Below are positions 460 to 35,046 of a DNA stretch of 35,529 nucleotides, piece by piece. The number at the start of each line of letters is the position of its first letter. Within the stretch, counting starts at the first letter, position 1. Below the pieces are notes generated by a model. That model saw only the letters and a list, made by a program, of their open reading frames with translations. It ran no database searches and was not told the DNA's origin. Made by a program: the position numbers and the translations under genes. The stretch is taken from positions 1-35,529 of the IMG/VR virus record IMGVR_UViG_3300044641_006922; one strand, 5' to 3'. This stretch comes from a virus.

Positions 460-467
460 TATATATC
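460..467 (-). promoter_or_regulatory. GATATATA motif upstream of the left-edge gene
   Basis: On the minus strand GATATATA, followed by AAG, lies 16 bases before the ATG at 443, in the short gap after uvsW. It is one of six exact copies I found, all just upstream of genes. It resembles the T4 late promoter element TATAAATA. Function is inferred. Confidence 0.35.
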
Positions 468-474
468 CCTAAAT

Positions 475-2013
475 TTAAAGTTTTACCTTGTATATCTTAT
501 ATTCGAAGGATTCATTCCTATAGATCTGGATTCTTGCCTCAGAGTGCTTCAACAGGTAGTTTTGATATTTAGGACTTGAAAAATCATCAACAAAGTCAAT
601 AATATTCACTTTATCCTTTCCTTCCATCTTTCTCATACCTCTGCCGAGACTTTGCTTTATTAACACTTCGCTTTTGTATGATTCCACTAAAAAGATGTTG
701 TGTAGATTGTTTATCGAGATCCCAGTAGAAAATGTACCGTAAGTGGCGATCAGTATTTTGTTTGCCCCTGATGCCATTCTTGCCTTATATTCCTCTCTTA
801 AGCCCTCGTTAGTGTCACCGTCAACATAAAAAACCTCTTTGTCATTATTCTTTTCCCTTAAAAGATTCCAGATTTGCTTACCGTATTCGTCCTTAACTGA
901 CTGAAATAAAACAAGTGAGTTCTTTGATGTCTTGCTTATAAAATCCACCACGTAGTTAAGTCTTTTCTTGCTTTCTACCACCAGTTTTCTCTCTAGATTG
1001 TAAACTTCGTTACCCTCTAGATTATTATTATTAATCTTTAAATCAGCAAGCTTGTCCTTTAATTCTTTCTCCAGCCAATCCATAACAACTATCTTAATAG
1101 AAACTGGGGTTGCGTAATTGTTATCGAAAAGGAAACTAGGCGAAATCTCAACTATGAGAGGACCTAAGAATTGCTGTATGGTTAAATAGTCTGCGGTTCC
1201 TCTTTTTGTTAGTGTTCCAGTTAACCCAAATCTCCATCTTGAGTGCATACAATTTGCTACGATCTTCTTTATCGACATACTGTTGGTGTGGTGTGCCTCA
1301 TCGACAAAAACCAAATCTGCCTCTTCGAAAAATTCCGGATCCTGCTTAACTAACGATTGAAAGGTTCCTATGATAACGTCGCACCCTTCTCTTAGTTTAG
1401 ATCCACCACCAATTTGTTGTACCTTGGAACCAAGCTTATGTAGACCATAATCTTCAAAATCTTCGCTTCCCTGAAAAACCAAGTTAGTACTTGGAACAAT
1501 CATGAGAAATTTCCTAATTAAACCTTTTTGTTTAAGGTATGCAAATATCATGAAAGATATCAGAGTTTTTCCTGAGGAAGTAGCAACTTCAGATACTGAG
1601 TATCTGTACTTAATCAGCTTCCACGCGGTTTCGATCTGGTAATCTCTTGGCATTTTTTCAGGATCTCCTCCAATACCACCTGCAAAGAATTCATTAACCC
1701 ATTCGGTGTACTCCTCAAGAGTTAAATCATTGTTCACTATTTTATCAAGACCGTTTATTTCGATCTTGATACTGTAATCTTCGCCAATCTGTAATACTTC
1801 TCTCCAAAGACCTATTGGTATTTTCCACGCCCCTCCTTTTTTTTCTATGAAGCATATATTTCCATCCCATATCTTTTTCTTTACTAAAGGGTGGAAATAG
1901 AAGTTGTGTATCTTCTTGGTTAATGATATATCAATTTGCTTCTTTTCAACCTCATCAAGTGCTTCCATTAGCACTATCCATTGATGATCATCAGAAACTT
2001 GGAATTTAATCAT
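475..2013 (-). CDS. uvsW: UvsW-like superfamily 2 helicase
   Basis: This 512-aa protein matches T4 UvsW (about 500 aa) along its length. UvsW is an SF2 helicase that unwinds D-loops, R-loops and branched recombination intermediates and helps switch T4 from origin-dependent to recombination-dependent replication. Visible features are an N-terminal UvsW-type domain (residues 1-110), a PRDYQ Q-motif near 122, Walker A ATSSGKT (144-150), DEAH box (238-241), motif III TGT (265-267) and motif VI QSLGRGMRK (454-462). Two stretches are close to T4: YGTFSTGIS near 425 and a NYLLKH segment near 485. The ATG follows the UvsY stop by 12 bases with an A/T-rich leader and no Shine-Dalgarno sequence. The call is firm. 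Confidence 0.95.
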   Translation of the reverse strand: MIKFQVSDDHQWIVLMEALDEVEKKQIDISLTKKIHNFYFHPLVKKKIWDGNICFIEKKGGAWKIPIGLWREVLQIGEDYSIKIEINGLDKIVNNDLTLEEYTEWVNEFFAGGIGGDPEKMPRDYQIETAWKLIKYRYSVSEVATSSGKTLISFMIFAYLKQKGLIRKFLMIVPSTNLVFQGSEDFEDYGLHKLGSKVQQIGGGSKLREGCDVIIGTFQSLVKQDPEFFEEADLVFVDEAHHTNSMSIKKIVANCMHSRWRFGLTGTLTKRGTADYLTIQQFLGPLIVEISPSFLFDNNYATPVSIKIVVMDWLEKELKDKLADLKINNNNLEGNEVYNLERKLVVESKKRLNYVVDFISKTSKNSLVLFQSVKDEYGKQIWNLLREKNNDKEVFYVDGDTNEGLREEYKARMASGANKILIATYGTFSTGISINNLHNIFLVESYKSEVLIKQSLGRGMRKMEGKDKVNIIDFVDDFSSPKYQNYLLKHSEARIQIYRNESFEYKIYKVKL

Positions 2014-2017
2014 TTTT

Positions 2018-2025
2018 TATATATC
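2018..2025 (-). promoter_or_regulatory. GATATATA motif before uvsW
   Basis: GATATATA fills most of the 12-base uvsY-uvsW gap and ends four bases before the uvsW ATG. At this distance a promoter would give an almost leaderless mRNA, so here the motif may instead be part of a translation leader. A near-copy (GATATAAAAAATG) precedes the 526-aa fibre gene at 15470. Confidence 0.25.
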
Positions 2026-2469: not shown

Positions 2470-2718
2470 CTAAAATAGTTTATTTTTATCTTTATTCTTA
2501 CCGCCAGATAGGTTTACCACTCTAACAGTATTTTTGTTTTTCTCTTTCTTTTTCTCTTTTGGCTCATTTATTATGGGCTCGGAAAACTCTATACTGATCT
2601 TATCCATAAGATTTTCCTTCATCTTGAGAGGAAATTTTATGCGGGGAGTACTTCTCTCGTCACATTCTTTTTCCCATTCACCAGTTTTATCCGTGCCTGA
2701 GCTGGGATCACTTATCAA
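2470..2718 (-). CDS. Small Lys-rich protein, unknown
   Basis: I do not recognise this protein. No ATG begins the frame near the primase end, yet the reading reads as protein well before the first internal ATG (2625). I chose the TTG at 2716-2718, which overlaps the primase TGA by 11 bases and gives 82 aa; another TTG at 2763 would give 97 aa. The N-terminal half is acidic and polar (SGTDKTGEWEKECDERS) and the C-terminus is a long Lys/Asn-rich tail, suggesting contact with nucleic acid or an acidic partner. It sits between primase and uvsY, and its stop abuts the uvsY ATG, so it belongs to that operon. The start is uncertain; an internal ATG would leave about 50 aa. Confidence 0.55.
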   Translation of the reverse strand: MISDPSSGTDKTGEWEKECDERSTPRIKFPLKMKENLMDKISIEFSEPIINEPKEKKKEKNKNTVRVVNLSGGKNKDKNKLF

Positions 2719-3772: not shown

Positions 3773-3777
3773 GGGAT

Positions 3778-3807: not shown

Positions 3808-3821
3808 GGTTAAATTATCTA

Positions 3822-5809: not shown

Positions 5810-5827
5810 ATAATAAAAATTTACGGA

Positions 5828-6064
5828 TTAAACAGCAGGATGAACTATCTGACCAACAGATCCTGTGTAACCATAAACTTTAGAGAGTTTTTCGAAACAA
5901 GATTTCATTTGTGCATCGGTTAAGCAGTTTACCAAGTCGTTTAATACTCTTTGATCGTTACCTGCAGCAGATACCAAAAGATTCTTCATTTGGTCTTTTT
6001 CGCCACCTAGTGGTTGACCATACTTCATCTCGTTTAATTCTTTTACGTCTGAAAACTTTTTCAT
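5828..6064 (-). CDS. Unknown 78-aa protein
   Basis: I do not recognise this small protein. It starts at ATG 6062-6064 after an A-rich leader and reads mainly helical and soluble, with two Cys (in LVNCLTDAQMKSCFEKL) and a C-terminal GYTGSVGQIVHPAV. No signal peptide or membrane segment is seen. It lies 18 bases upstream of the RuvC-like gene and 27 bases after the tail-tube-like gene, with a GATATATA motif directly in that gap. This makes it the probable first gene of the replication and recombination run. Reality is supported by spacing on both sides and no better frame. Confidence 0.7.
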   Translation of the reverse strand: MKKFSDVKELNEMKYGQPLGGEKDQMKNLLVSAAGNDQRVLNDLVNCLTDAQMKSCFEKLSKVYGYTGSVGQIVHPAV

Positions 6065-6083
6065 CTTTAGTGTTTAATTTAAT

Positions 6084-6091
6084 TATATATC
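6084..6091 (-). promoter_or_regulatory. GATATATA motif at head of the replication block
   Basis: GATATATA lies 19 bases before the ATG at 6064 and directly after the TAA of the tail-tube-like gene. The spacing would allow a promoter with a short leader. It marks the boundary between structural genes and the replication and recombination genes. Function is inferred from recurrence. Confidence 0.4.
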
Positions 6092-6640: not shown

Positions 6641-6642
6641 GC

Positions 6643-8922: not shown

Positions 8923-8933
8923 TTAATTTTAAA

Positions 8934-9779
8934 TTATTTTCCGAACTGTAAAAATTTTGGTGAATAATGGACTCCAAATCCAATATAAAATCCAGGAGTA
9001 AGTCCTACAGAAGATCCTGATATTCCGTATCCCATCTGAACTCCAAGACCAAATTCCTTCCTAGCAGATTTTAATGCTTTTCTCGTATCCGCATTATCTG
9101 TAATATCAAAAGAGTTAATATCATTAAAAGTTAAACCAGGATAAGTTGTGGTTACTCTGGTCATCATTCTTTTAGTTTTAGGGTCTCTGTAGATCCCTGT
9201 TGTGATATCTATATTTTGCTCAAGATTTAGAGAGGTGAGTCCAGGTAAAATCGTAGCTATGTATTTAGTAGAATCTGAAGGATCTACGTGAATACTTATT
9301 GTGTATGGAGTCTTCCCAGTTATTTTTAGCCTGTTGTTTCCTGGCATTGATGGATTATGTAAAAAGCTTATTGATTCATCTCCATTTGGATCTTTAACAA
9401 TCGTAGATGCTACCTTAACGCTATCCCTAATTTCAGTAACAATATTTATTACAGAGTTTGGTGTGTTACCCCTTCCGCTAGATTTTAATCCCAATTGATG
9501 GATCAGCTCTTTTTGACTTTTAGAAAGCTCTGATGCTTTTAGTTCATAAGCTGACTTTTCTTGAATCAAATGACCGTTCTCATTCTTGATAGTTCTTACG
9601 CTATCTAAAGATGCTAGATAGTTATTATGTTCTCTTTTTGCTTCTGCTTCCATATGAGCAGTTTCCCCGCATTGTTTTAAAAACAGCAGAATTAAAACAA
9701 CAATTACAGCAAGCATTGAAAATCTGCTGCTTAGTACCGACGATACTTTCGAAAGAGTATCTTTATTTAGTAGTTTCAT
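8934..9779 (-). CDS. Membrane-anchored coiled-coil protein, possible spanin
   Basis: I start this at ATG 9777-9779 (281 aa); a TTG two codons earlier is possible. A single hydrophobic helix (MLAVIVVLILLFLKQCG, about 22-38) follows a basic N-terminus, so the protein should sit in the inner membrane with its body outside. A charged heptad-like region follows (about 42-95), then a beta-rich middle. The last 40 residues (GLGVQMGYG, then GFYIGFGVHYSP) read like the final strands of an outer-membrane barrel. Anchor, coiled coil and outer-membrane-seeking end together suggest a spanin-like lysis protein joining both membranes. That is inference: I recognise no family. It overlaps the preceding 88-aa coiled-coil gene by 17 bases, so the two may work as a pair. 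Confidence 0.6.
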   Translation of the reverse strand: MKLLNKDTLSKVSSVLSSRFSMLAVIVVLILLFLKQCGETAHMEAEAKREHNNYLASLDSVRTIKNENGHLIQEKSAYELKASELSKSQKELIHQLGLKSSGRGNTPNSVINIVTEIRDSVKVASTIVKDPNGDESISFLHNPSMPGNNRLKITGKTPYTISIHVDPSDSTKYIATILPGLTSLNLEQNIDITTGIYRDPKTKRMMTRVTTTYPGLTFNDINSFDITDNADTRKALKSARKEFGLGVQMGYGISGSSVGLTPGFYIGFGVHYSPKFLQFGK

Positions 9780-10029
9780 ATACAACTTCTTCTTTTTTCC
9801 ATTTTAATCCCATTGGATCTAGCTGGCCTTCGCCATATTTTTCAGATAGACTACGGGAAAAACTTTTTTCTCTATCCCTACATTCCTCTAATTCTTGTAT
9901 TAATTCAGAAGATCTTAACTCCATCTTCTTTATCGTCTCCTCCACCGTCATTATTTCCCCGTGGATTCTAATAAACTCCTGAGAGATATTTAAAACCTCT
10001 TCTTTTTCTTTTTTTGTTAGATCTATCAT
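9763..10029 (-). CDS. Small coiled-coil protein (88 aa)
   Basis: I do not recognise the family. The sequence is highly charged and mostly helical, with heptad-like spacing through residues 1-65 (VLNISQEFIRIHGEIM, then ELIQELEECRDREKS) and a single Cys. It has no membrane segment or signal peptide. It overlaps the start of the membrane-anchored gene (TATATGAAACTACTAAATAA holds both the ATG and the stop), so they are very likely co-translated. A TATAAATA motif lies 39 bases before the ATG at 10027-10029, making this the probable first gene of a transcript. A lysis regulator or a structural accessory are both possible. Confidence 0.7.
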   Translation of the reverse strand: MIDLTKKEKEEVLNISQEFIRIHGEIMTVEETIKKMELRSSELIQELEECRDREKSFSRSLSEKYGEGQLDPMGLKWKKEEVVYETTK

Positions 10030-10068: not shown

Positions 10069-10076
10069 TATTTATA
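10069..10076 (-). promoter_or_regulatory. TATAAATA, exact T4-type late promoter element
   Basis: TATAAATA on the minus strand is identical to the T4 late promoter -10 element. It sits in the 53-base gap between the 582-aa fibre gene and the 88-aa coiled-coil gene, 39 bases before the ATG. A small inverted repeat TAGT-CGT-ACTA overlaps its upstream edge. One copy in AT-rich DNA can arise by chance, so the assignment is tentative. Confidence 0.45.
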
Positions 10077-10082: not shown

Positions 10083-11831
10083 CTACAGTGCAGATGATTT
10101 AGCTGTTACTGCTGGAATTGTGCTAGCCGGTGCTGCGGTAACCAAAGATCCTACACTAAATCTGTTAGTTAATGGTATGTATCCGCTAATTCCGTCGCAC
10201 GTTTTCCAGAATACCCTAGGATTTCCGTTTGTTGTGCTAGCTGATCCCAGAAAAGTTAGATCGACATAGCAGCTTTCCGTCGGGAAAGCGTTCATTGAGG
10301 GTTGATATCTAAATCTCATGTAATATTGAATGGCAGAGAATGCTCCTCTAAAATTGAAACTCCAATAATTAAAAACCAGTCCAGCTATTTTGTAGTTTTG
10401 CCCACTTATCGTACTAGTATCATTCAAGAATATCCTATACGTATTAGTGTATCCAGTATTATAAAGACCAGATACGTTTTGCTCGTATGAAGTAGGGATT
10501 CTAAGGAAAACCTCATTGCTATCTGGAAGAGTATAAGTTGTAGGCGTAATAAGAATTATATCGCTGTCCCATAAAGAAAGTGATGTTAAATCGACAACAT
10601 TATAAACTGTTGGAGTAAACGATGTTGCTGCTGTCCAGATTCTTGCATTCAAATTAATTGTTGAAGGAGATACAGCTCTTATTTTTTTAACATTATAAAG
10701 ATATGGTCCTCCAGTAGCTCCAGCAGGCTGACCCCCGGTAGAACCGAATGTGGTTTGTATATGCTTTCCAGATGAAACTGATCCTCTAGCTTTAGCTGAA
10801 AAGATGGGAGCATTCATAAAATCAAAAAATTCAAAAGCTGTGTCCTGGGTGCTAGAAGCTAGAATAGATACACCTTGAGTAGAGGTAGATACTCCCGATG
10901 GCGTATTTTTAATAGCGTCAAAAGCCACTTGCCCGTTAGAAACGTTAGTGGTTCCTATTTTTATTGGAATTCTTGAAGTTAAGCTCGCTGAAGAAAGAGT
11001 TATATTAGACGAAGCCAGCGAAAGATCCCCTCCAACCCCGACGGTTGTATTTGAATATAGATAGAAATCTCCAGTTCCCCCGATCGTAACGTCCTGAACT
11101 GATGATATTTCAGCATGGTCACCATATAAAATGCTTCTTGCTGTATATGAATCTATGGTAATTCCCCATAAAGCAGAAATCTCCAAATTACCCGTCGAAT
11201 AATATCGCAGGGAAGCAGAGTTACCTAAAGTTCTCCAATAGAAACCGGGGGATCCTGCAGAAACTGCTCCAGTTTTAGAAAAGGATAATATTGGTCTGGT
11301 TATCTGATCCTCTGTAGAAATCAATAACTTACTCCTATTTGGGTTTATTCCTGATATTGAAGGGTAATCATCACCTATAACTAAAGATGTATTAGATTCA
11401 ATTAAACCGGTTCCACTTTTCAATCCTATCGCATACTTATCAGGCATAACTACGCCACCAGGTCCTATCAATTGATCATATACTGAAAAGTAAGGCGATG
11501 TAAATAGAGAATATCCGCTGTAAGACCAAGCACCGGTACTTCCTGCGGTATTTATTTGATAATCACTTGTGTTTGAATCTATCCAAAGATCAAAAGGATT
11601 AGGAGAAGCTGGAGCATTATCGGATTTGGACCAAAGTGTGCCTCTTAAACCCGTAGCTCCAGTAATTCCTTTTCTGCCGGAAGGACCATCATATCCTGCT
11701 GGACCCTTAGGACCTTGATGTCCATTAGGACCAACAGCGAAAGAAAGTATCTGATCAAAGTTATAATTGATTTTTCTTTTTATCTCTGAAGCCGAATCAC
11801 CAGCAAAAATATATTTAGTATTAAAGTGCAT
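10083..11831 (-). CDS. Collagen-like tail fibre protein, paralogue C (582 aa)
   Basis: This is the last of three tandem paralogues. An N-terminal helix (IKRKINYNFDQIL, about 17-29) leads to exactly ten Gly-X-Y triplets (34-64), then RGTLW and a short conserved domain (DLWIDSN, near 81-87). The rest is a unique Ser/Thr/Gly-rich beta-structured region with no family I recognise. Collagen-like rods in phage tail fibres make stable trimers, and variable C-terminal ends usually bind the host. Cys is rare. The N-terminal module is shared with the neighbours at 11848 and 13890 while the C-termini differ, as expected for fibres or adaptor tips with different receptors. It follows the 668-aa gene by 16 bases. 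Confidence 0.8.
   Translation of the reverse strand: MHFNTKYIFAGDSASEIKRKINYNFDQILSFAVGPNGHQGPKGPAGYDGPSGRKGITGATGLRGTLWSKSDNAPASPNPFDLWIDSNTSDYQINTAGSTGAWSYSGYSLFTSPYFSVYDQLIGPGGVVMPDKYAIGLKSGTGLIESNTSLVIGDDYPSISGINPNRSKLLISTEDQITRPILSFSKTGAVSAGSPGFYWRTLGNSASLRYYSTGNLEISALWGITIDSYTARSILYGDHAEISSVQDVTIGGTGDFYLYSNTTVGVGGDLSLASSNITLSSASLTSRIPIKIGTTNVSNGQVAFDAIKNTPSGVSTSTQGVSILASSTQDTAFEFFDFMNAPIFSAKARGSVSSGKHIQTTFGSTGGQPAGATGGPYLYNVKKIRAVSPSTINLNARIWTAATSFTPTVYNVVDLTSLSLWDSDIILITPTTYTLPDSNEVFLRIPTSYEQNVSGLYNTGYTNTYRIFLNDTSTISGQNYKIAGLVFNYWSFNFRGAFSAIQYYMRFRYQPSMNAFPTESCYVDLTFLGSASTTNGNPRVFWKTCDGISGYIPLTNRFSVGSLVTAAPASTIPAVTAKSSAL
11640..11732 (-). repeat. Collagen-like repeat, ten Gly-X-Y triplets (582-aa fibre)
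   Basis: Residues 34-64 of the 582-aa protein form ten uninterrupted Gly-X-Y triplets closed by a Gly, many with Pro in X. The following residues are TLW. The same length and boundary occur in the two sister genes. Confidence 0.9.
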
Positions 11832-11847
11832 CTATTTATTTTTTAAT

Positions 11848-13854
11848 TTATACTCCCGAAACTGTTATTTGATAAGCTGTTTGTCCGGATAGAGATAAGC
11901 CACTCCATGTTATAGTTCTCGTTGTTCCTGATCCAGAAACGCTTCCGCTGACGGATATACCTGACGGATAATAAATCAAAGTGGAAGTTACGAAACTTGG
12001 CGAGGAATTAAAAGTTACGCTCAGCGATAAAGCAGTAACACTACTACTAAAAGTAGTGTTTAATGATGATGCTGGTGTTATTTGCCCAGGTCCTGCAAGT
12101 GTCGATGTAAATGGTGCAGTTGATTGCAGAGTCGCAGTTGTTATGAAAATTGTACCTGAATTATAAAGATACGAATTTGTTGAAAATATATTGTATAAAA
12201 TACCGCACTTAGTTCCTGATATATTACCCCCATATGCGCTATAGTAAACAGAGAACCATTTTCTATTTCCTGCGGTGGATCCTAAACCAGCTATATTCAT
12301 TATCGTAAAATCTACGTGAGAAACACCTAGAGAATTGGATGATGTTAAATCCACAACCTGGGGATATATTGAAATGGGAGAATTCGTAAATGTATTTGAA
12401 GTATTCAGTCCTAAGAATCTAATAAGCTTGCTTTCTGAATCTGTTCTAACTCTAAAGCTAATTGCCTCATAGTTATTTAACATGTTTAACCATCCACCAT
12501 TATTATTGGTTCCCGTCCCTCCTGTTGCTGGTGTCCATAAACAAATTCCCATCGAATTGGAAGGACCTGATGTCGAAGGTCTAATAACAAAATCAGTTCC
12601 GTTATTAGCACTTATTCTTTGACTTGCAGTACCACCGGCACCTGAATAAACTGCTCCGGGTATTACGGTATACCAATTTGTATTCGAAACAGAAAGTGCG
12701 CTAGCAACAACGGTCGGCGTAACCATCGCTGGAGTCTGAATTGAATTGATTCTCTTATTATACCAAACTTCTCCGTTAGCCTTAACATCAAATATAATTT
12801 CGCTCGATGTGTAAGCTAAGAATAATCTAGAAACACTGCTAGATATAACATTTGCACGATAAGCCAAATTACCCGAATTTGCTGAATTACTTTCTATCCA
12901 GAGCGGAGGAAGCGAACTGTTTAATGTATTAGTGAAATTGAAAGTTATCGGCATTTCGAATCTGTTTCCCCCTCCACTAATAAGATATTTTATATTTCTA
13001 TTAGATAGCAATAAAGTACCAGCTGAAGTGAAATTCATTACAAAATTTCCCGCCGTTGTTATCGAGAGTCCTTGGCTTCCCGATAAGTTTAAATTGAAAC
13101 CTGTAGACCTGTATCTAGAATTATTTATGGTGTTGGTATTAGTTGAGAGTTTTAGTTCTCCCACAGGAACATCAAAAAATAAAGAGTCCCCATTTTTCCA
13201 AGAAAGATAATATTTAGTAAATCCAATAAGAGTAGATGTCCAATAAAATCTAGGCGTTTTTGTATTAAAAGATGTGTCCGATGAGTAATCACTTTTGCTA
13301 AACTCGAGTAGATTTTTTCCTGTTGCTCCTCCGTCTATTGCAATAAGAACCTTAGAATATTGGGGATTTGTGATCGATGAAGTTCCGACTAAAGAATTAT
13401 CACTAAGTACTAATGTATAATTAGAAGGGTTTGTTGAAGTTAATGTGTATGCGTTATAAGAAGAATTCCCGGAAGAAGTTGGAATATTTGGATAAACTCT
13501 AAACAAATCCTGAGAAAGAAGTCCGAATCCATATGGGTTCCATCCCGAATCTGAAAATTGGTAAATTGGATTACCTAATCCAGCCCTAGTATTTAGCCAG
13601 AAATCATTATTAATGTACCCGGTTAATCCCGGATCAGTAGGACCTATCGTCCAAATACTACCTCTGCTACCCATCCCGCCATAAGATCCAGCAGGTCCCG
13701 TTTGTCCAGGGTCACCCTGAGGACCTTGGTCTCCGGTCTTGCCATAAGGGCCTCCGCCGAAGGTTAATATATCAGAAAAATTGGAGTTGATCTTATCAAC
13801 TAAAACTTTCTGATTATCTCCTTCCTCTATTCTTAATAATTTTAAATCTGGCAT
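11848..13854 (-). CDS. Collagen-like tail fibre protein, paralogue B (668 aa)
   Basis: This is the middle paralogue. The N-terminal helix VDKINSNFSDIL (19-30) is followed by ten Gly-X-Y triplets (35-65), RGSIW, then the shared module with NDFWLNT and SGWNPYGFG (about 85-112). The body to about residue 560 is rich in Asn, Ser and Thr with repeated aromatic strands. The last 60 residues (from about 605) read as an immunoglobulin-like or pilin-like beta sandwich ending ITVSGV. I see no enzymatic motif. Its ATG has a GATATATA motif 29 bases upstream that overlaps the stop of the 526-aa gene. A trimeric fibre or receptor-binding protein is the likely role. Confidence 0.8.
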   Translation of the reverse strand: MPDLKLLRIEEGDNQKVLVDKINSNFSDILTFGGGPYGKTGDQGPQGDPGQTGPAGSYGGMGSRGSIWTIGPTDPGLTGYINNDFWLNTRAGLGNPIYQFSDSGWNPYGFGLLSQDLFRVYPNIPTSSGNSSYNAYTLTSTNPSNYTLVLSDNSLVGTSSITNPQYSKVLIAIDGGATGKNLLEFSKSDYSSDTSFNTKTPRFYWTSTLIGFTKYYLSWKNGDSLFFDVPVGELKLSTNTNTINNSRYRSTGFNLNLSGSQGLSITTAGNFVMNFTSAGTLLLSNRNIKYLISGGGNRFEMPITFNFTNTLNSSLPPLWIESNSANSGNLAYRANVISSSVSRLFLAYTSSEIIFDVKANGEVWYNKRINSIQTPAMVTPTVVASALSVSNTNWYTVIPGAVYSGAGGTASQRISANNGTDFVIRPSTSGPSNSMGICLWTPATGGTGTNNNGGWLNMLNNYEAISFRVRTDSESKLIRFLGLNTSNTFTNSPISIYPQVVDLTSSNSLGVSHVDFTIMNIAGLGSTAGNRKWFSVYYSAYGGNISGTKCGILYNIFSTNSYLYNSGTIFITTATLQSTAPFTSTLAGPGQITPASSLNTTFSSSVTALSLSVTFNSSPSFVTSTLIYYPSGISVSGSVSGSGTTRTITWSGLSLSGQTAYQITVSGV
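13660..13752 (-). repeat. Collagen-like repeat, ten Gly-X-Y triplets (668-aa fibre)
   Basis: Residues 35-65 of the 668-aa protein form ten Gly-X-Y triplets plus a closing Gly, bounded by a KINSNF helix before and SIW after, the same frame as in the two sister proteins. Confidence 0.9.
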
Positions 13855-13883
13855 TTTTTTCTATGGATCTTAATAAGTTATTG

Positions 13884-13891
13884 TATATATC
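13884..13891 (-). promoter_or_regulatory. GATATATA motif before the 668-aa fibre gene
   Basis: GATATATA lies 29 bases before the ATG at 13854, partly overlapping the TGA of the preceding 526-aa gene. The spacing suits a promoter with a short leader. It could give the two downstream fibre genes extra transcription. Confidence 0.4.
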
Positions 13892-15470
13892 AATAAGTGA
13901 AAGATCCCCCAGAACCTCCAGTGGATCCTATAGCACCGGTTGAAGACCAGGGAGCATAAGCTCTGTAATAAACTGTGGTTACACCAGATCCTGTCATCCC
14001 TCTAGCAATCGTAAGATCTACTGTTTGTGCTAAGAATGGTAGGGTCACTTTAGTTACACAAGAAGCTGAAGCACCTGTACCGACACCGATGAATTTGAAT
14101 CCCGTAGCTGAAGACCCGCTTGGAGCATCTGAACTGTTATGAACAGTTATATCTATAGATTCTCCCATTTGAAGTCCTCCAGATCCACCCCATCCAAAAT
14201 CGGTATCCGAATACAGACCCAGACCGACATGCTGGCCAGAAACTATAGCTGGGTTGATTATCATAACATTTCCGTTATTTAAAGGCGATCCCACTGTAGA
14301 TGAAGTTCTGGATATAAAATACCAATTTATTATAGTTGAGCTCCCACCGCTTATCCCGGTGGTCCCAGGAGTAGTTGATGGATATGATATACCGGTTACA
14401 GTTTTATTAGTTTTGAGTTTTCCCCTTGTGGAAAGCCAAAATTCTCTACCGGCAGAATTTTCCAGAGCTAAGTGGTAAACAGATTGGGAAAGCCCGTCCC
14501 ACGTGTCACCGGTTCTAGTGGATCTAAATCCTGCTGTTCCTGATGGAGTTATTTGAGTGTGAGGTGATGCGGAAGGCACCGTAGCTGTGGACTTAATAGG
14601 ATCCAAAAATCCCCCTGATAATCCAGAGACGTTGAGGTATTTGCTGGTTAGATTAAATTGACCAACGGAGTTAATGTTATATCCACCGGTTGCATATATT
14701 CCAGAAGATGAATCCAATCCATAATTTATATCTGTGCCCTTTTGTGATTGCATCACTAAAGAGTTAAATCTAGATTCGAATCCACCAGATGCACCAATTT
14801 CTAGAATACCTCCAGGAACGCTCATTCCTAAAGAATTATCTGTCGGTATAGTAGAGGTCCAATAAAAGAAAGGGTGCAAAGAATAATCGGCTACAGTTCC
14901 ATTAGCTATATCACTCCGAGAAAATTCCAAAAGAGGAGAATCATTTACGCTAGAATCATTTGATATGGAGAATTTGGCAAGTAGCTCGTTAACGACTCCA
15001 TTCTCAGGAGTAACGTCGCTCATTATAAATAGATAGTTCTTAGGTAATACCTGAGACATTTGTATAGCAGTACCTGTTCCACCTGTGTATCCAGTACCTC
15101 CACTATAAGTAAAGTTGTCAGTTCTAAATAAATTTGCACCTGTTCTTATATTGTATCCCGTGGGGTTCCACCCGGTTAGTTGCAGGGTGTATATTTCGCT
15201 GGTTGCCGAGTCTATCCAATAATCTCCTTCCTGTGCACTACCTGCAGGAGCTAGGCCAGAAACAAACCATCTAGTTCCTCTTTCACCATCTAAACCAGTT
15301 GGACCAAAAGTTCCAGAATCCCCTATAGCTCCTCTATCACCAGTAGGTCCCACAGTACCTTGATTTCCTCCGTGAAGTTCTACGATTTCATCGAAGTTGT
15401 TATTAATCTTATTTATAAGTTGACTTTGATCGTCACTGTAATTTAAGGACTGTATATTAGTATTTGGCAT
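13890..15470 (-). CDS. Collagen-like tail fibre protein, paralogue A (526 aa)
   Basis: This is the first of the three paralogues in transcription order. It has the helix INKINNNFDEIV (19-30), ten Gly-X-Y triplets (35-65), RGTRW, and the shared module with EGDYWIDSATSEIY and TGWNPTGY (about 81-108). The middle is Ser/Thr/Gly-rich beta structure, and the C-terminal 140 residues include hydrophobic strands (VTKVTLPFLAQTVDLTI) and finish in a Gly/Ser-rich tail GSTGGSGGSFTY. It follows the giant 1976-aa gene by three bases, in the order expected for fibres that dock onto a baseplate-associated protein. No catalytic site or S74-type chaperone was seen. Confidence 0.8.
   Translation of the reverse strand: MPNTNIQSLNYSDDQSQLINKINNNFDEIVELHGGNQGTVGPTGDRGAIGDSGTFGPTGLDGERGTRWFVSGLAPAGSAQEGDYWIDSATSEIYTLQLTGWNPTGYNIRTGANLFRTDNFTYSGGTGYTGGTGTAIQMSQVLPKNYLFIMSDVTPENGVVNELLAKFSISNDSSVNDSPLLEFSRSDIANGTVADYSLHPFFYWTSTIPTDNSLGMSVPGGILEIGASGGFESRFNSLVMQSQKGTDINYGLDSSSGIYATGGYNINSVGQFNLTSKYLNVSGLSGGFLDPIKSTATVPSASPHTQITPSGTAGFRSTRTGDTWDGLSQSVYHLALENSAGREFWLSTRGKLKTNKTVTGISYPSTTPGTTGISGGSSTIINWYFISRTSSTVGSPLNNGNVMIINPAIVSGQHVGLGLYSDTDFGWGGSGGLQMGESIDITVHNSSDAPSGSSATGFKFIGVGTGASASCVTKVTLPFLAQTVDLTIARGMTGSGVTTVYYRAYAPWSSTGAIGSTGGSGGSFTY
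15276..15368 (-). repeat. Collagen-like repeat, ten Gly-X-Y triplets (526-aa fibre)
   Basis: Residues 35-65 of the 526-aa protein form ten Gly-X-Y triplets plus a closing Gly, followed by TRW. Position in the protein is the same as in the 668-aa sister and offset by one residue from the 582-aa one. Confidence 0.9.
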
Positions 15471-27321: not shown

Positions 27322-28236
27322 TTAAACCGTTACGTTAGTAGCTGATAAAACGATCCAAGAACCGTTTTGAGTTGCTTGTCCCTGACCAACTCTAGATTCC
27401 CATTGTAGGGTTACCGATGATCTATAGGCCTTGCTCGCAGCTACTGTTATACCAGCAGAAGCATATCCTCCATAGTTGGCACTAGTGTTAAATCCAGTAT
27501 AGTAACTTGAAGATGTTCCCGTTACTCCAGTGTAAATGTAACCAGTTGCTGCTGATGTGTTAACAATAGTTACCCTAGTTCCCTGAGGAATATTAGGTAG
27601 TGTTCCACCTACTGGAGATGTTCCGTCAACAACTTTCATAAAGAATCCAGTAGGTCCACAGTTTGCATAAATAACGTCTTCTAAACCAGTTACTGCATAA
27701 GGTGAGTTTACTGATGTTACGAATCCGCCGCCGCCGATTCCAGATGCGCTTGAATCGAATGCTGAACCTGCAGTTAAACCAGTTTTATAAGTTGTGTTTG
27801 AACTTATAGTGTGTCCAAGAGAACCTAAAGTAAATGCTCCATTAGCATTTAGACTTCCATTGAAGCTAGATGTTCCTCCTGCTACAAAAATAGAAGATGT
27901 TCCTAAGGTAATTGTACCGTTTAGCACTACCGCTCCGGATGCTGTTATATCGGTAGACTGGACGCTTACGAATGAAGCTGCTCCCAAGTTATTTACCGAT
28001 GCTGTAGGTACCCCAGTAGAAGGAATTGATAGTGAATCAAAAGCTCCAATCTTTGCTTGAACTTTACCTGTAGAAGCACCGCTGAGATTTAGTATACCGT
28101 TTACTGTGTCTATGCCAAAAACCGTAATGTATCCGTTTATCCAGTTCTGTAGAATTAGAAAATTAGAATTAATCGTTACTCTTGAGCCTGAGATTGAATC
28201 AGTGCCTAAAATTTCTGTAATGTTTACTGTTGCCAT
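27322..28236 (-). CDS. Small fibre-like virion protein (304 aa)
   Basis: The product is low in charge and rich in Gly, Ser, Thr, Val and Ala, as in beta-helical or beta-sandwich fibre parts. The N-terminus holds RVTINSNFLILQNWI (19-33), which echoes the KINxNFxxI helix that precedes the collagen rods of the three fibre proteins, but no collagen repeat follows. A glycine run GIGGGG lies near 165-172, possibly a hinge. The C-terminal third (TRVTIVNTSA, then WIVLSATNVTV) reads as a compact beta domain. It is the first gene of the long minus-strand tail block, divergent from the plus-strand PhoH island, with a GATATATA motif 30 bases upstream. Fibre, decoration or whisker protein are all possible. 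Confidence 0.7.
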   Translation of the reverse strand: MATVNITEILGTDSISGSRVTINSNFLILQNWINGYITVFGIDTVNGILNLSGASTGKVQAKIGAFDSLSIPSTGVPTASVNNLGAASFVSVQSTDITASGAVVLNGTITLGTSSIFVAGGTSSFNGSLNANGAFTLGSLGHTISSNTTYKTGLTAGSAFDSSASGIGGGGFVTSVNSPYAVTGLEDVIYANCGPTGFFMKVVDGTSPVGGTLPNIPQGTRVTIVNTSAATGYIYTGVTGTSSSYYTGFNTSANYGGYASAGITVAASKAYRSSVTLQWESRVGQGQATQNGSWIVLSATNVTV

Positions 28237-28266
28237 TTTATTGTTTTATTTCTTTTTGAATTGAAA

Positions 28267-28274
28267 TATATATC
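28267..28274 (-). promoter_or_regulatory. GATATATA motif in the divergent region, facing the tail block
   Basis: GATATATA lies 30 bases before the ATG at 28236, in the 61-base gap between divergent genes. It would start the long tail-gene transcript. The same A/T run might also serve the plus-strand genes, but I could not identify a clear promoter in that direction. Confidence 0.42.
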
Positions 28275-29240: not shown

Positions 29241-29261
29241 ATCCTAGATCTATTCTTTATT
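29229..29261. terminator. Bidirectional hairpin between convergent genes
   Basis: A perfect 15-bp inverted repeat, AATAAAGAATAGATC, loop CTA, GATCTATTCTTTATT, lies between phoH and the 1339-aa gene. Each arm contains the end of one gene, including its TAG, so it sits exactly where both transcripts must stop. The outer stem is A/T-rich, giving U-rich 3' ends in both directions, but no separate T-run follows. It is a likely two-way terminator or mRNA 3' end. Confidence 0.75.
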
Positions 29262-32200
29262 AAAAGTTGCGTCCGGATTATTCGGAATAACTATAGCAGA
29301 TCCAAATTGGCCCTTATTAGCTTTTAGTATTTCCATCTCTTGCTGCATTAGATCTTTACCTAATCTCATTGCTTGATAATCTCTTGCAAGGAAAGGAGGA
29401 TTAGGATATCCATAATCTGCTGAATCAACAAAATCTGGTCTTAGATCGTCAGGTCTTTTATCCTTATGATTTATTACTTTTATGAATCCTGGTTTGGACG
29501 TTTCGTAGATATTACCTGCTGAGTCTTCGGTCTGATTGTATATGGTATAAAAACCCGGATCGACAAAAGTATAAATAAAATAAGGGCTTCCTTTAATATT
29601 AAGGAGTTCCTCTTTAGATTCGGAATTACTTAATATCCATTTGTTGTTTGTCTTACCGTAGATATTAGAAGCGTAATTATTGAAAACGACAGTAGATAAT
29701 AACGGTATCTCCATATATGAATCTGTTGAATGGACATCACACCAGGTCCAAGCACCAGATCCGGGTCTAGATATTATGTTTCCTAGATTTATACCAAGTT
29801 CGGGCTTATATTGCTCTATTAAAGAGGTAAATCCTGCTGTAGCACCAAAGTAAATAAGACTTCCTGTTCCGCCAGTAGATCCGCTTATATTTATACCCGA
29901 CGAGAAAATATTAGATTCTCCGTCTTTTGTGAATGTTAATTCACCATCAAAGGTTCCGAAATTTTCTAGATCTAAGTTCTTTCCTGAATTGTTTGTTTTC
30001 AGTAAAGCTACTTTATAACCGGTTAGACCCGTCGTGTTTATTTCATATGAAGATATGAACTGATCATCATCTAATTTATCAAAATAGAGTATCTCCATTT
30101 CTCTGTCTAAAACACCAGTCTTATTAGAGAACACATTTTTTGGTGTTCCCTGATCTGTTATCTCTGCGGTATAAAGATAATTTTCACCGGTAGATCCTAG
30201 AACTATCTCATATCCAAAATAGCTTCCAGTTAGACCCTGACCGTAATCACCTATAACAGTATTTACATAATATCCGGATTTGTCTTTGGATGCGTATATT
30301 TTATTGAGATTTGAATTTGCAGAAGTTCCGCCAATGTTTATTATTCCCCCTGTTATACCATTTCCGGTCGGGTCTGAGATAATATAGAAAGGATAGCTAC
30401 TGTAATCGGAAGGTGAAGGATGCGATATGTTCAGTCCAAACATATCGATATCACCTTTAGATTGACCAGTAATTAGAACGCTTGATTCATTATTAGCTGA
30501 TTTTATACCACCTATGTAAAATCCTCCAGTAGTTCCTGTGGTATTCACAACGTTACTTAAGTCTAGATTATCGCAATCTAGTTTGACGTAAGATCCAAAG
30601 ATATTCTCAGATGAATTACCTATAATACTAGGAGATGTGCTTAAATCACTATTTCTATTCCAAGCATTTTTTAGGGTATCAAATGTGACAGGAGTACTTG
30701 CTTCGTGGGTAATAGCAAGATTCACATGGTATCTACTAGAATCGATTGACGTATAAGCGGTTCCTCCTGGGTATGTTGACGTTGGTACAAAATGTCTAAA
30801 TGAATTTATTCTGTATGATTTTTTTACTGAGTTATTATAGTCTCCAGTAACTCCAGCAAATGACGAAATGTTACCTAGGTCTCTTCCTATTTTAGCTACA
30901 AATATAGCTTTAGAGTTTGGTTGTGAAACACCATTATAAAGTGTGTATGGATAAACCGTACTGTAACGATCATAAGATCTGATGGTCATACTAGTTCCGT
31001 TAGTGTAAGGAACTGATCCGGTAGATCCGCTCTGGTAAGTAACCCCTACACCAAAAGAATCTGCATCTCTATAAATTTGATTAATCCTATAGTAGGCAGT
31101 ATTAGCTCCGTTATCTATTCTTATAGTTTGACCTGTTAATATAGTTGATATCGTAGAATACCTGTTTACACTTCCAGAATCTATAAAATTAAGATAAACC
31201 TTATTTATACCATCATAATTCCCGCCATATCCTGCAGTTATTCCAATAAACCCAAAATCACATCTACCAGATCCTAGTGCATCGACAGCACCTGGTGAAA
31301 TAGTCCAGGAAGAATTAAGGGATATCGTACCATTAGACGGAACACCTATACCGGGATAAATACCAGAGGTAGCTCCAGGAACCATAGGATTGGTAACTCC
31401 TACCGGAGAACCTGTTGCCCCTGTTGGTCCACTTAAGTTTTCGTATGCACTCCAAACAAATTCACCAACTTCTATAAATTTGTCGAATGTCCCAGAAGCG
31501 TATAGATAAAGTCCATCTTCGCTTGAACATATACTCTGCACTTCAGTACTAAAACCATTAAATGGAAGTATTGAATCAACTTTTCCACTTTCTGAATATG
31601 CAACAATAAATCCAGTTTTACCGTTATTAATCGAGTTGTAAGTCGAAGCCGTATTTGAATTTAGGCTAGGGCCAATATCGGATAATATAGCTGGAGTGTT
31701 GTCTGAATAATATCCGAATTGAATTGAATAACTTCCTGTGTAAATATCAGGTTCGATATTTCCTGAAATGTAATATTTCTTTTCTCCAAAAAATGTTTGG
31801 GAAGTTGATGATGTTATATTAACCATTCCGATATTACCCGATGCACCCGAAATATACGATACGGCTTCATCCCATATAGGTGCTTGTATACTTTCGGTTA
31901 TAAGATCTTCCTCAAACGTAGCTATTGGCCAATTATTCCAATATGCTTGTTTACCAGCTCTTCCGTCAGCTATATCAGCTAATTTTGTAGTTAAAAATAA
32001 ATTACGGGGATCTAGCCCAGGATGTTTATATTCCAAGAAAGAGCTATCGTAAACCATCCACTCCGGGTTATTCCAGGTGTATTTATTTACTTTAGGTAAA
32101 GGAGATCCACCTCCTGTGGCTGCATAATATGTGAAATTCCATCCAGTAGCACCAGCATATTTAGATGATCCGTAAACGTGAGGCATATCGTAACCGAAAA

Positions 32201-33269
32201 GGCTAAGAGTATCATATCCAAGAACCCATAAATCATTCTCGTGTATAGTGATATCACCCTGTTTTGTATTGTGACCTATTAGATCTATTCCGAGTACGTC
32301 ATTAGAATTTAACGAAGAATTGGATGTGTTAAATTGGGTGTGTGTAGTTCCGTTAAAGTGCCAAATACCCGTTCCGAGACCAAGCTCACCGTCTCCCTTT
32401 GAATAAAATACATGACCATTTTCTCTTGATTTTATCGCTGTGATTGGTCCTCCGCTAGTCGGATAATTCCAAAATTCTATGCCATCAAAATAAGAAAGTC
32501 CCAGATCAGTGCCTATCCAAAGATTACCATTCTCATCAAAATCTAAACAATAAACGTTATCTGATATTATCCCGCTTGTGCTGGTATTATAAACCTTCGA
32601 TTGCTGGATATACTTGGATCCGTTTGTTAAAGTTAGGGTTTGTAATTTTCCCTGGGGAACAATAAAAAGCCCCTCGGATGTTCCCATATAATATAGGTAA
32701 TCCTTACCTTCATATCCCTTTGTTTCTATAGCATAAATGTGAGGCCAGATGTAATCATCTACTGTTTCTCCCCACTGATCTGTTTCTTTGAGATAGTAGA
32801 ATAGTCTTCCTCCTGTTGCTCCTTCTATTCTAGTGTAATTGTAACCTGATGCTCCAGTTCCACCTACCCCATTAAGAGGATTTACGAATGCAAGCACATC
32901 ATCGCCAAATGGACAAGCGTATATCAGAGAAACCTCCTGTGGTTGATCGAATGTTCCCAGAGCTTGGAATGTCCAGCTCTCACCTTCATCAACCTTGTTA
33001 GTATTAATCCAGAAAACTGCAACCTGATTTATGCTGGAAACACCTGCAGTTGGACCTTGAGCTACACCAACCCAAGCTTTATCTTCGGGGTCTATTGAGA
33101 TACACCTAGTATCTAAGTAGTAAGGAGCAACCTGCGGAACAGCAGAGTTTGTGCTATCATAATATTCCCAACTCGATCCGTTAAATCTCCTAACATCCTG
33201 GCCTGAAGCCCAAACATAAAATTCCTGGTCTAAATCTATTTGATTGATATAAAGGGTACTACTGGGCAT
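29250..33269 (-). CDS. Beta-propeller virion protein (1339 aa)
   Basis: The first 360 residues look like a beta-propeller. The clearest blade, about 236-268, has FDENGNLWIGTDLGLSYFDG, a near-perfect match to the Reg_prop repeat of Bacteroidota two-component sensors. Weaker blades seem to lie at about 14-38, 55-88, 177-205, 276-312 and 325-361. The long middle is Ser/Gly/Tyr/Thr-rich beta structure. A PKD-like segment lies near 1200-1265 (PYFIYTFVDPGFYTIY), and a short helical C-terminus (AMRLGKDLMQQEMEILKANK) may dock it to a partner. No signal peptide or membrane helix is present, so it is not a sensor; a virion protein for host-surface or glycan contact is the best guess. It ends inside the shared hairpin. 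Confidence 0.75.
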   Translation of the reverse strand: MPSSTLYINQIDLDQEFYVWASGQDVRRFNGSSWEYYDSTNSAVPQVAPYYLDTRCISIDPEDKAWVGVAQGPTAGVSSINQVAVFWINTNKVDEGESWTFQALGTFDQPQEVSLIYACPFGDDVLAFVNPLNGVGGTGASGYNYTRIEGATGGRLFYYLKETDQWGETVDDYIWPHIYAIETKGYEGKDYLYYMGTSEGLFIVPQGKLQTLTLTNGSKYIQQSKVYNTSTSGIISDNVYCLDFDENGNLWIGTDLGLSYFDGIEFWNYPTSGGPITAIKSRENGHVFYSKGDGELGLGTGIWHFNGTTHTQFNTSNSSLNSNDVLGIDLIGHNTKQGDITIHENDLWVLGYDTLSLFGYDMPHVYGSSKYAGATGWNFTYYAATGGGSPLPKVNKYTWNNPEWMVYDSSFLEYKHPGLDPRNLFLTTKLADIADGRAGKQAYWNNWPIATFEEDLITESIQAPIWDEAVSYISGASGNIGMVNITSSTSQTFFGEKKYYISGNIEPDIYTGSYSIQFGYYSDNTPAILSDIGPSLNSNTASTYNSINNGKTGFIVAYSESGKVDSILPFNGFSTEVQSICSSEDGLYLYASGTFDKFIEVGEFVWSAYENLSGPTGATGSPVGVTNPMVPGATSGIYPGIGVPSNGTISLNSSWTISPGAVDALGSGRCDFGFIGITAGYGGNYDGINKVYLNFIDSGSVNRYSTISTILTGQTIRIDNGANTAYYRINQIYRDADSFGVGVTYQSGSTGSVPYTNGTSMTIRSYDRYSTVYPYTLYNGVSQPNSKAIFVAKIGRDLGNISSFAGVTGDYNNSVKKSYRINSFRHFVPTSTYPGGTAYTSIDSSRYHVNLAITHEASTPVTFDTLKNAWNRNSDLSTSPSIIGNSSENIFGSYVKLDCDNLDLSNVVNTTGTTGGFYIGGIKSANNESSVLITGQSKGDIDMFGLNISHPSPSDYSSYPFYIISDPTGNGITGGIINIGGTSANSNLNKIYASKDKSGYYVNTVIGDYGQGLTGSYFGYEIVLGSTGENYLYTAEITDQGTPKNVFSNKTGVLDREMEILYFDKLDDDQFISSYEINTTGLTGYKVALLKTNNSGKNLDLENFGTFDGELTFTKDGESNIFSSGINISGSTGGTGSLIYFGATAGFTSLIEQYKPELGINLGNIISRPGSGAWTWCDVHSTDSYMEIPLLSTVVFNNYASNIYGKTNNKWILSNSESKEELLNIKGSPYFIYTFVDPGFYTIYNQTEDSAGNIYETSKPGFIKVINHKDKRPDDLRPDFVDSADYGYPNPPFLARDYQAMRLGKDLMQQEMEILKANKGQFGSAIVIPNNPDATFNKE

Positions 33270-33291
33270 TTATCTTTTTTTAGTTATGTTC

Positions 33292-33299
33292 TATATATT
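33292..33299 (-). promoter_or_regulatory. AATATATA, one-base variant of the motif before the 1339-aa gene
   Basis: AATATATA lies 22 bases before the ATG at 33269, in the 55-base gap. It differs by one base from GATATATA and has the same position relative to its gene. I give it low confidence because A/T octamers are common here. Confidence 0.22.
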
Positions 33300-33324
33300 T
33301 TGATTTGAATAATCGTGCTATTAG

Positions 33325-35016
33325 TTAGGGATTACCAAAAAACCATCCCCTAACAGGTTCTGGTGAGTTTATGTCCCTTGTCTGGTAGGGATTTGCTACT
33401 CTATTTGTATTAAAAGCGGTCCAATTAATTACCCCAGGGGTGCTAGGAAATGCCAGATATGGATAGGGATTCCAGGGTCCATTATCACTTAGATCTACTG
33501 CGACTAGAAAAGGACCAGGTCCCCTATCTATAATAGCTATCTTAAGACCGTTAAAATCACTAATACTATAGGATCCCGAATCGGATTCCCATGAATAATC
33601 GGGAGAAGCCGAAGCAACTACATTGGAATCATATCCGGCTGTAGTTAAAGCGTCGTTTATTAATGTTGCAACACCAAGTCCAGTTCCAAAAAGAGTATCC
33701 TGCATAAGTACTAGATTGCCATCCTGACTATTCCCGGGGGATCCACCAGAGGAGATTATGACCGGGACTGTAACATCCATAATTGGATCTATCGTAGCAA
33801 TTGATCCAACATTACTGAATCTTAATCTTAGATAAATCTCTATCGAGTCTATACCTACAAACTGGCTGGAAGGTAGACAAGCACCGCCTGGATTAAAACC
33901 GCTGGGGTTAATTCCATCGAGTCCTACGAAATATGCTACCGGGGGAATACCAGGGGATATCTCCAGTGCTCTCGAAGATTGATACCCTATGGAAATCTCA
34001 TTAAAAATAAGGGACTCAACTTGAGAAGATGTCCAATACCTGTTATTAATTAAATTTTTACCGTATCCGGCTGTATCGGCAAAATAAAATACACTGAAAA
34101 AATAATCTCCAAGGTCTCCTGGAATCATGTAATTTCCCTGCGTGTATCTACTTAAAGACTCCCATCCAGTAGGAGTAACCCCGAGAGCCTGGAATGCAGA
34201 CTGAGAAGCAATATACTGACCAAAAAATCCGCCACTAAGAGTGGGTAAAAATTCTATGTCCTGTGAGGAAGACCAGTAAGTCGTGGATTCTCCCTGAGCT
34301 CTAAATTGAGTGTTGTTTATAGCAAGTGTCGATGCGTAATTAGTATCCACTAGATAGGCATTACCTGAACCAGCCATCCCGAATGAGCCTAAAGGAATTC
34401 CCGTGTCAAGCACGTTATAATAACTAACCCCCAGAGTGTAAGTACCAGTCAGGTAGTTATAAGGTTCAAATCCGCCATTTTTACTGTATGTCACATTCGT
34501 ACTAGAGGATGAGGTGTTACCCAAAACGCTATTAAAAACAACCGAGGATGTTGATGTATAGGTTGAATAAGCAGCACCTAATTCAGATCCCGTTAGATTT
34601 ATCCAGCTATAAAGAGTGCTTGATTGAGTTTGGCTAGTACCAGTAAATCCGGCTAACCCTGCAATATTCCAAGAATAATAAGAAAGATTACCCGTTGAAC
34701 CTGCTACCGTATAGATTACTGTTGTTCCCATGTGAACGGGAGAAGTCGTAACGCTTGTAGATAGCGACACTGATATATTCTCTGGTAATACTACAATTAT
34801 ATTTGATTCTTCTTTCGTTGAGGTAACTGCTACCTTGGTTACTGTCAATTTAGCATTAAATCCACTCCCTGAAGGAGAGAGATACCTGATAATTGGATTA
34901 AGACTAACTGATCCTGTTGGAGTTCCCCCTGGGAAATTCCAGCTTCTACTCGTGGGATTACCCACCGAGATATCCTGATACAAAACATAATCTCCCTGGT
35001 TTATTGTTATTGACAT
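33325..35016 (-). CDS. Virion protein with PKD-like N-terminal domains (563 aa)
   Basis: The first 80 residues have the pattern of a PKD/Ig-like domain (SRSWNFPGGTPTGS, then IIRYLSPSGSGFNAKLTVTKV), and a second appears to follow at about 82-160 (VIYTVAGSTG, YYSWNIAGL). The rest is Ser/Gly/Tyr/Asn-rich beta structure with repeated aromatic strands, and the end (NSPEPVRGWFFGNP) is short and Pro/Trp-rich. PKD-like domains are common in phage tail and adhesin proteins and often carry a receptor-binding part on a rigid stalk. There is no signal peptide. It lies 55 bases before the 1339-aa gene, with a GATATATA motif 22 bases before its ATG. The family as a whole is unrecognised. Confidence 0.72.
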   Translation of the reverse strand: MSITINQGDYVLYQDISVGNPTSRSWNFPGGTPTGSVSLNPIIRYLSPSGSGFNAKLTVTKVAVTSTKEESNIIVVLPENISVSLSTSVTTSPVHMGTTVIYTVAGSTGNLSYYSWNIAGLAGFTGTSQTQSSTLYSWINLTGSELGAAYSTYTSTSSVVFNSVLGNTSSSSTNVTYSKNGGFEPYNYLTGTYTLGVSYYNVLDTGIPLGSFGMAGSGNAYLVDTNYASTLAINNTQFRAQGESTTYWSSSQDIEFLPTLSGGFFGQYIASQSAFQALGVTPTGWESLSRYTQGNYMIPGDLGDYFFSVFYFADTAGYGKNLINNRYWTSSQVESLIFNEISIGYQSSRALEISPGIPPVAYFVGLDGINPSGFNPGGACLPSSQFVGIDSIEIYLRLRFSNVGSIATIDPIMDVTVPVIISSGGSPGNSQDGNLVLMQDTLFGTGLGVATLINDALTTAGYDSNVVASASPDYSWESDSGSYSISDFNGLKIAIIDRGPGPFLVAVDLSDNGPWNPYPYLAFPSTPGVINWTAFNTNRVANPYQTRDINSPEPVRGWFFGNP

Positions 35017-35038
35017 TAAATAATAAGGTAATTTGATT

Positions 35039-35046
35039 TATATATC
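35039..35046 (-). promoter_or_regulatory. GATATATA motif before the 563-aa gene
   Basis: GATATATAAAT lies 22 bases before the ATG at 35016, in a 43-base gap. With the bases that follow it also holds TATAAAT, seven bases of the T4 late element. This is one of the best-spaced copies. Confidence 0.42.

Follow-up and report, generated by a model that had tools for sequence, protein, structure and literature searches.

The 35,529-nucleotide (nt) viral DNA stretch IMGVR_UViG_3300044641_006922, hereafter the window, is a 35.5-kb fragment of a huge T4-like phage in which the octamer GATATATA precedes several minus-strand genes. We consider it probable (at roughly 0.85) that GATATATA is a late promoter of the gp55 type, of divergent sequence, in huge uncultured phages that form a widespread group. 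An original prediction, made from the window only, had proposed by analogy with T4 that the octamer may be the late promoter of the phage. This proposal is supported by the enrichment of the octamer in intergenic DNA, by its top rank and strand bias upstream of genes in relatives, by its conservation upstream of orthologous genes, by a conserved A five bases after the box, and by the gp55-family sigma factor that relatives encode.

According to the mechanism that we propose, the late promoters of this lineage would contain a single recognition element, GATATATA, an 8-bp box lacking a −35 element, which would be read by a phage late sigma factor of the T4 gp55 family acting on the host RNA polymerase. 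The first transcribed base would be a purine, in most cases A, located five bases past the box, which would span about −12 to −5. In most late mRNAs, a short A-rich leader of approximately 9 to 30 nt would precede the start codon. A minority, represented in the window by the mRNA of the UvsW gene, would be leaderless, their first base being the A of the AUG codon.

Enrichment of the octamer upstream of genes

The six exact minus-strand copies reported by the original prediction (starting at positions 460, 2018, 6084, 13884, 28267, and 35039) were all recovered, and the plus strand contained none. The announced distance of 4 to 30 nt to the start codon was confirmed by measured values of 16, 4, 19, 29, 30, and 22 nt, respectively. 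Five copies were located entirely in gaps between genes, in agreement with the claim that none was inside a gene, but the first two bases of the copy at 13884–13891 are also part of the upstream gene's stop codon. The estimate of about 2% non-coding DNA holds if two short doubtful open reading frames are counted as genes, whereas the gene list established here gives 3.4%. The number of copies in the whole window was unremarkable (6 versus 3.84 expected; 19 of 100 shuffled sequences reached 6), although such a count is ill suited to a signal that depends on position. Comparison with shuffled intergenic DNA had been set beforehand as a refuting check. The gaps extended by 8 nt of flanking sequence (1468 nt) contained 6 copies versus 0.12 expected, a number reached in none of 5000 dinucleotide shuffles, and no copy was present on the opposite strand. 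The outcome that would have refuted the prediction was thus not obtained.

The UvsW helicase encoded by the window displayed 42% identity with that of LR756500, an uncultured huge phage of 462 kb, and approximately 35% identity with those of Prevotella Lak phages. Nearer relatives were present in IMG/VR as contigs of up to 434 kb, with identities of 71–97% for UvsW or 63–93% for the tail tube. Three long relatives (contigs of 319 to 434 kb) were analyzed, namely G001 (348.6 kb), a 400-kb part of G002, and G005 (319.3 kb), in which genes were called by a simple custom caller based on codon usage. All 8-mers found in the segments upstream of genes were ranked against the counts expected from an order-2 Markov model. 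GATATATA ranked first in the three genomes, with observed over expected counts of 55/4.7 in G001, 42/4.6 in G005, and 66/4.9 in G002 (log10 p of −38, −25, and −49, respectively). The ratios of sense to antisense copies upstream of genes were, in the same order, 55:11, 42:6, and 66:20, and the sense strand of coding DNA contained 11 to 13 copies per 280 to 345 kb. GATATATA was also the top upstream 8-mer of LR756500 (24 versus 3.2 expected). As a control, the same pipeline recovered the T4 late consensus TATAAATA in T4 (18/2.5) and in cyanophage S-RIM8 (8/0.7), and GATATATA was absent upstream of genes in both phages. A search of the open literature, subscription literature being outside its reach, revealed no paper pairing GATATATA with phage promoters, nor was such a motif found in a few papers on related huge phages.

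The original prediction had also pointed to an exact copy of TATAAATA at 10069. This copy is real (10069..10076, minus strand), with an A at +5 and located 39 nt before an 88-aa gene (9763–10029), but the window contains nine copies, of which the other eight are inside genes. It may be a weak variant box, although this is unproven; GATATATA was present 13 to 15 nt before the start codon of 5 of the 39 orthologues of the 88-aa gene. In LR756500, TATAAATA was not enriched (20 versus 21 expected). In G005, it displayed a sense bias of 23:4, leaving room for a minor role. The possibility that TATAAATA might be an equivalent second box was abandoned since it was unsupported in LR756500, in G002, and in the window. 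The link between TATAAATA and the late box is weaker than initially implied: the box of the lineage is GATATATA, and the use of TATAAATA is not clear.

Conservation upstream of orthologous genes

Exact copies of the octamer were counted in distinct, non-redundant upstream regions of orthologues. For the site at 460, the octamer was present in 28 of 28 orthologues, 16 to 20 nt before the ATG, with an identity of the downstream protein as low as 33%. For the site at 6084, it was kept in 56 of 58 orthologues at 17 to 23 nt. Conservation was partial for the site at 13884 (20 of 46 orthologues, at 18 to 31 nt), and the only two orthologues found for the site at 28267 both kept the octamer, at 29 to 31 nt. 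Five operon-internal genes of the window, encoding a 147-aa protein, the primase, the tail tube, and proteins of 759 and 283 aa, were preceded by the octamer in none of their orthologues. That AT-rich gaps merely yield AT-rich octamers would be compatible with the whole-window count, but this explanation is refuted by the gap-only shuffles, by the first rank of the octamer in four genomes, and by the footprints at 460 and 6084; its probability is negligible.

Architecture of the putative promoter

A motif model was fitted by expectation-maximization (EM) to 203 upstream segments of G001, on which the model rests. In G005 and G002, EM seeded with GATATATA drifted to a stronger, early-type promoter, and exact 8-mer statistics were used for these genomes. 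The first position of the G001 motif was G in 56% and A in 36% of the cases. Neither a −35 element nor any other strongly conserved element preceded the box in this fit, and the box was not followed at a constant spacing by a conserved −10 or −7 element. A single 8-bp TATA-like box lacking a conserved −35 element, as obtained in the G001 fit, is the arrangement of T4-type late promoters. A site for a phage regulator or activator, comparable to a MotA box and located upstream of a conventional promoter, could also be a short single box in one orientation. However, GATATATA may be separated from the ATG by only 4 nt, which leaves no space for a downstream promoter, and the element that such a promoter should place at a fixed distance after the box was not seen in G001. 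A regulator site is accordingly hardly credible.

At +5 after the octamer, 91% of 118 leadered sites had a purine and 83% had an A (C 2%, T 7%), compared to 47% A at +4. Per genome, A was found at +5 in 76, 80, and 90% of the leadered sites, in 95% of the sites of LR756500, and in 98–100% of the sites in two footprint sets. Of 167 additional non-redundant sites, 95% had a purine at this position. In the three genomes, the start codon followed the box by 0 to 6 nt (nearly all 4 to 6) or by 13 nt or more, and none was found at 7 to 12 nt. A wider set comprised 200 sites, of which 27 were at 0 to 6 nt, none at 11 to 14 nt, and the rest at 15 nt or more, with the exception of six sites considered below. 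In LR756500, no start codon was located 4 to 6 nt after the box, so this genome has no leaderless class. Because of the purine at +5 and of the gap in start-codon distances, we infer that transcription starts at +5 and that some messages are leaderless. Sites located 4 nt from the ATG would therefore begin exactly at the A of AUG. The hypothesis that promoter and N-terminus were copied together as a DNA module was dropped since the 4-nt spacers differ.

A second, probably early promoter class

G001, G005, and G002 also carry a long, distinct promoter-like motif, ATTTTTTTATCCCG-N-tttcTATATTTGC, which was also rendered as ATTTTTTTATCCCG-N-TATATTTGC. The −7 element of Bacteroidota promoters is TAnnTTTG, and the 3' part of the motif matches it. 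The motif is clustered in one block of the genome and precedes genes for dCMP deaminase, a nucleotidase, and a sigma-70-like factor. It never occurred together with GATATATA on the same gene (0 versus 8.9 expected), and the window contained no good match to it. These sequences probably define an early promoter class. This class, together with the Lak and Chryseobacterium relatives, makes a Bacteroidota host likely.

The two promoter classes bear on another explanation, namely that GATATATA acts at the RNA level, in the 5' leader, by contributing to processing, stability, or ribosome binding. The octamer is indeed near start codons, and since Shine-Dalgarno sequences are generally missing from Bacteroidota genomes (PMC3155529), leader signals of another kind are plausible. 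However, two classes of start-codon distance (4 to 6 nt and at least 13 nt) are unlike a ribosome site, no other promoter was conserved upstream of GATATATA, the octamer and the early-type promoter are mutually exclusive, and a purine at +5 is the signature of a start site. An RNA element is therefore very improbable.

A gp55-like sigma factor in relatives

A late sigma factor of the gp55 family (phrog_234) was detected in all six long relatives tested (E values of 2.5e-16 to 5e-15), and a gp55 relative was present at 244 IMG/VR loci. The gene is located outside the 35.5-kb fragment, but a contig encoding a UvsW 97% identical to that of the window also carries gp55. For LR756500, the identity in gp55 was 47%. 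The gp55-like protein of the relatives comprises about 119 residues and matches positions 4–110 of the gp55 family profile. T4 gp55 (7d7c/7d7d) was the sole match in a sequence search of the PDB. A model of the gp55-like protein, generated by AlphaFold2 with viral-contig rows only (predicted local distance difference test score, pLDDT, of 83), matched best the gp55 of 7d7c (Z score of 13.7 over 113 residues; root-mean-square deviation of 10.4), followed by general sigma region 2 structures (Z scores of 10.5 and below). The high deviation suggests a hinge or a low-confidence tail in the model. A phage multisubunit RNA polymerase was sought with PF00623, which gave no match at E ≤ 0.1 in five genomes and was positive in 14 of 14 control genomes.

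Upstream of gp55, most of 19 relatives displayed a terminator (hairpin plus T-run) followed by a locally conserved TGAAAT...ACTA[AG]AA-like stretch. The latter is not a genome-wide motif and was rejected as a recurring promoter. GATATATA was absent before the gp55 gene in 19 of 19 relatives.

All six genomes tested also encode a second phage sigma factor (phrog_351, sigma-70-like), located in G001 at C1:70345–71226 and with counterparts in G002, G004, G005, LR756500, and MA9V-2. One phrog_351 relative is among the early-promoter genes of G001 and might run a middle class. A sigma factor available for a later class could in principle read GATATATA in place of gp55. However, a sigma-70-like factor with a region 4 should leave a −35 signal, and none was seen. 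The length and position of the box and the absence of a −35 element fit gp55 promoters, and GATATATA differs from TATAAATA at only two positions. Furthermore, a phrog_351 match was also obtained in MA9V-2, in which GATATATA is absent upstream of genes. Recognition by this second sigma factor is, in our assessment, unlikely.

Several observations weigh against the assignment of GATATATA as a gp55-type late promoter. The gp55-like protein lacks the C-terminal clamp-binding segment of T4 gp55, its homologues stopping shortly after the sigma-2 segment. Neither the gp45 sliding clamp nor the gp33 co-activator was found by profile or iterative search. A diverged clamp is nonetheless likely to be present because the gp44 clamp loader was detected in four relatives (E of about 1e-62). 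GATATATA was not enriched in Lak-B5 (220 kb tested) or in Chryseobacterium phage MA9V-2, although both encode gp55 relatives. Thus, gp55 and GATATATA do not appear to be locked together over wider distances. The gap in start-codon distances is strong but not absolute, since six of the 200 sites of the wider set were at 7 to 10 nt, four of them from one gene family. Finally, the site preceding UvsW is poorly conserved. It appears to be young since the octamer was found only in the four nearest of 58 orthologues. We nevertheless infer that gp55 reads GATATATA, that the genes preceded by the octamer are expressed late, and that leaderless messages would be made and translated.

Genes preceded by the octamer

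Among the 58 genes of G001 preceded by GATATATA, 20 were scanned, most of the others having no assigned function. They include genes for the tail sheath, the head maturation protease (prohead protease), collagen-like fibres, and endolysin. The scanned set therefore contains virion, assembly, and lysis genes, as expected downstream of T4-type late promoters.

N-termini resembling MKxIKxFxxFxNE[AS] were found in 75 of 151 proteins of the GATATATA class versus 178 of 1090 elsewhere (Fisher p of 4e-18), an enrichment that is descriptive since the pattern was framed after some of these N-termini had been seen. They resemble the MKTYQEFIAEA sequence of T4 internal proteins, taken from the T4 genome. 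Internal proteins of T4 harbor a conserved capsid-targeting sequence (PMC3012670). Many late-class proteins beginning in this manner were observed in G001, G005, and G002, as was the product of gene 3–443 of the window. By analogy, such proteins may possibly be packaged in the head and injected. A specific association with leaderless genes, suggested by 24 of 33 cases in three genomes, was not retained because the wider set gave 9 of 27 leaderless versus 73 of 152 leadered genes; the general enrichment among late genes stands. In G005 (38.7–48.4 kb), about ten paralogous genes whose products begin with MKRI.NYKTFINES are arranged in tandem, several of them being preceded by TGATCTAATATAATATAAAG in place of GATATATA.

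We tentatively propose, at somewhat less than even odds, that this lineage, a large and widespread one among huge phages of Bacteroidota, combines a minimal gp55, reduced to sigma region 2 and lacking the clamp-binding tail, with a re-specified box, GATATATA. Late transcription might then be uncoupled from replication as far as gp55 is concerned, part of the late regulon would be leaderless, and the regulon would be enriched in proteins with N-termini resembling those of T4 internal proteins, which may be head-packed and injected.

Sites and other features of the window

All six GATATATA sites of the window and a one-base variant have an A at +5 and are on the minus strand. The box at 460..467 has a predicted start at 455 and a leader of 12 nt, and precedes gene 3–443 (N-terminus MRIKKFDIFTESLTEG). 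The UvsW gene has its ATG 4 nt after the box at 2018..2025, so that the predicted start, 2013, is the A of the ATG. This start codon is supported by a full-length alignment, from residue 1, with distant UvsW proteins. The box at 6084..6091 (predicted start at 6079, leader of 15 nt) precedes a 78-aa gene (5828–6064). The box at 13884..13891, which overlaps the TGA of the upstream gene, has a predicted start at 13879 and precedes a collagen-like fibre gene (11848–13854). Predicted starts were at 28262 for the box at 28267..28274, before gene 27322–28236, and at 35034 for the box at 35039..35046, before gene 33325–35016, which had no separate orthologue in the footprint set. The one-base variant noticed before the 1339-aa gene (29250–33269) is AATATATA, at 33292..33299, with a predicted start at 33287. 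It fits the G001 motif since A is the commonest alternative first base.

The gene content of the window comprises the UvsW helicase, a primase, a gp32-type single-stranded DNA-binding protein, a RuvC-like nuclease, a tail tube, PhoH, and long fibre-type genes. An Rfam scan of the window gave no match and a tRNA search detected none. The N-terminal stretches of three adjacent collagen-like fibre genes (10083–15470) are related (for example LLRIEEGDNQKVLVDKINSNF), which suggests tandem duplication. In the relatives, family B DNA polymerase is split into at least two separate genes about 16 kb apart (221757–223157 and 204507–205655 in G001; likewise in G005, G002, and LR756500), and the match to the clamp loader gp44 in LR756500 is likewise divided into two pieces, separated by about 2 kb. 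Downstream of gp55, G001 carries two adjacent paralogous genes of about 537 codons (316048–317661 and 317671–319281), judged by eye to be portal-like duplicates.

Comparison with known late promoters

If the proposed assignment is correct, GATATATA provides a readable map of late genes for hundreds of uncultured huge-phage contigs, and late operons become predictable from sequence alone. It also makes testable whether T4-type late transcription can proceed without contact between gp55 and the clamp, and how a gp55 switches from TATAAATA to GATATATA inside one family. For T4-type late genes, expression from the predicted leaderless messages would be unusual, here in hosts whose genomes mostly have no Shine-Dalgarno sequences (PMC3155529).

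T4 late promoters, which depend on gp55, gp33, and gp45, have the consensus TATAAATA and no conserved upstream element, their box starting at −13, about one helical turn before the transcription start (PMC2988020). The promoters described here share with them an 8-bp TATA-like box, the lack of a −35 element, A/T-rich downstream DNA, the service of presumed late genes, and a gp55-family sigma factor, in this case encoded by relatives. The start predicted here would also lie about one helical turn downstream. In contrast, GATATATA departs from TATAAATA by T to G at the first base and A to T at the fifth, the predicted start is one base nearer, gp55 has only about 119 residues and no clamp-binding tail, and gp45 and gp33 were not recognized. 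The leaderless class of the three genomes was also not observed in T4.

Departure from TATAAATA at the first positions of a T4-family late box has a precedent in Aeromonas phage Aeh1 (a/gC at −13/−12; PMC2988020), although the substitution is a different one, G at the first base being combined here with T at the fifth. In T4-like cyanophages, the gp55 relative also lacks the T4 C-terminal epitope, according to an alignment made here, and late promoters were found by the same pipeline, but S-RIM8 uses the canonical TATAAATA rather than GATATATA. The late promoters of phiKZ-type phages (TATG; PMC5312081) likewise belong to giant phages and consist of a short element near the transcription start. 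However, they are read by a phage multisubunit non-virion RNA polymerase (nvRNAP), of which the five genomes searched gave no sign. LR756500 differs from the three genomes by the absence of the leaderless class, but it shares with them GATATATA as the top upstream 8-mer, the A at +5, and recognizable UvsW and gp55 proteins.

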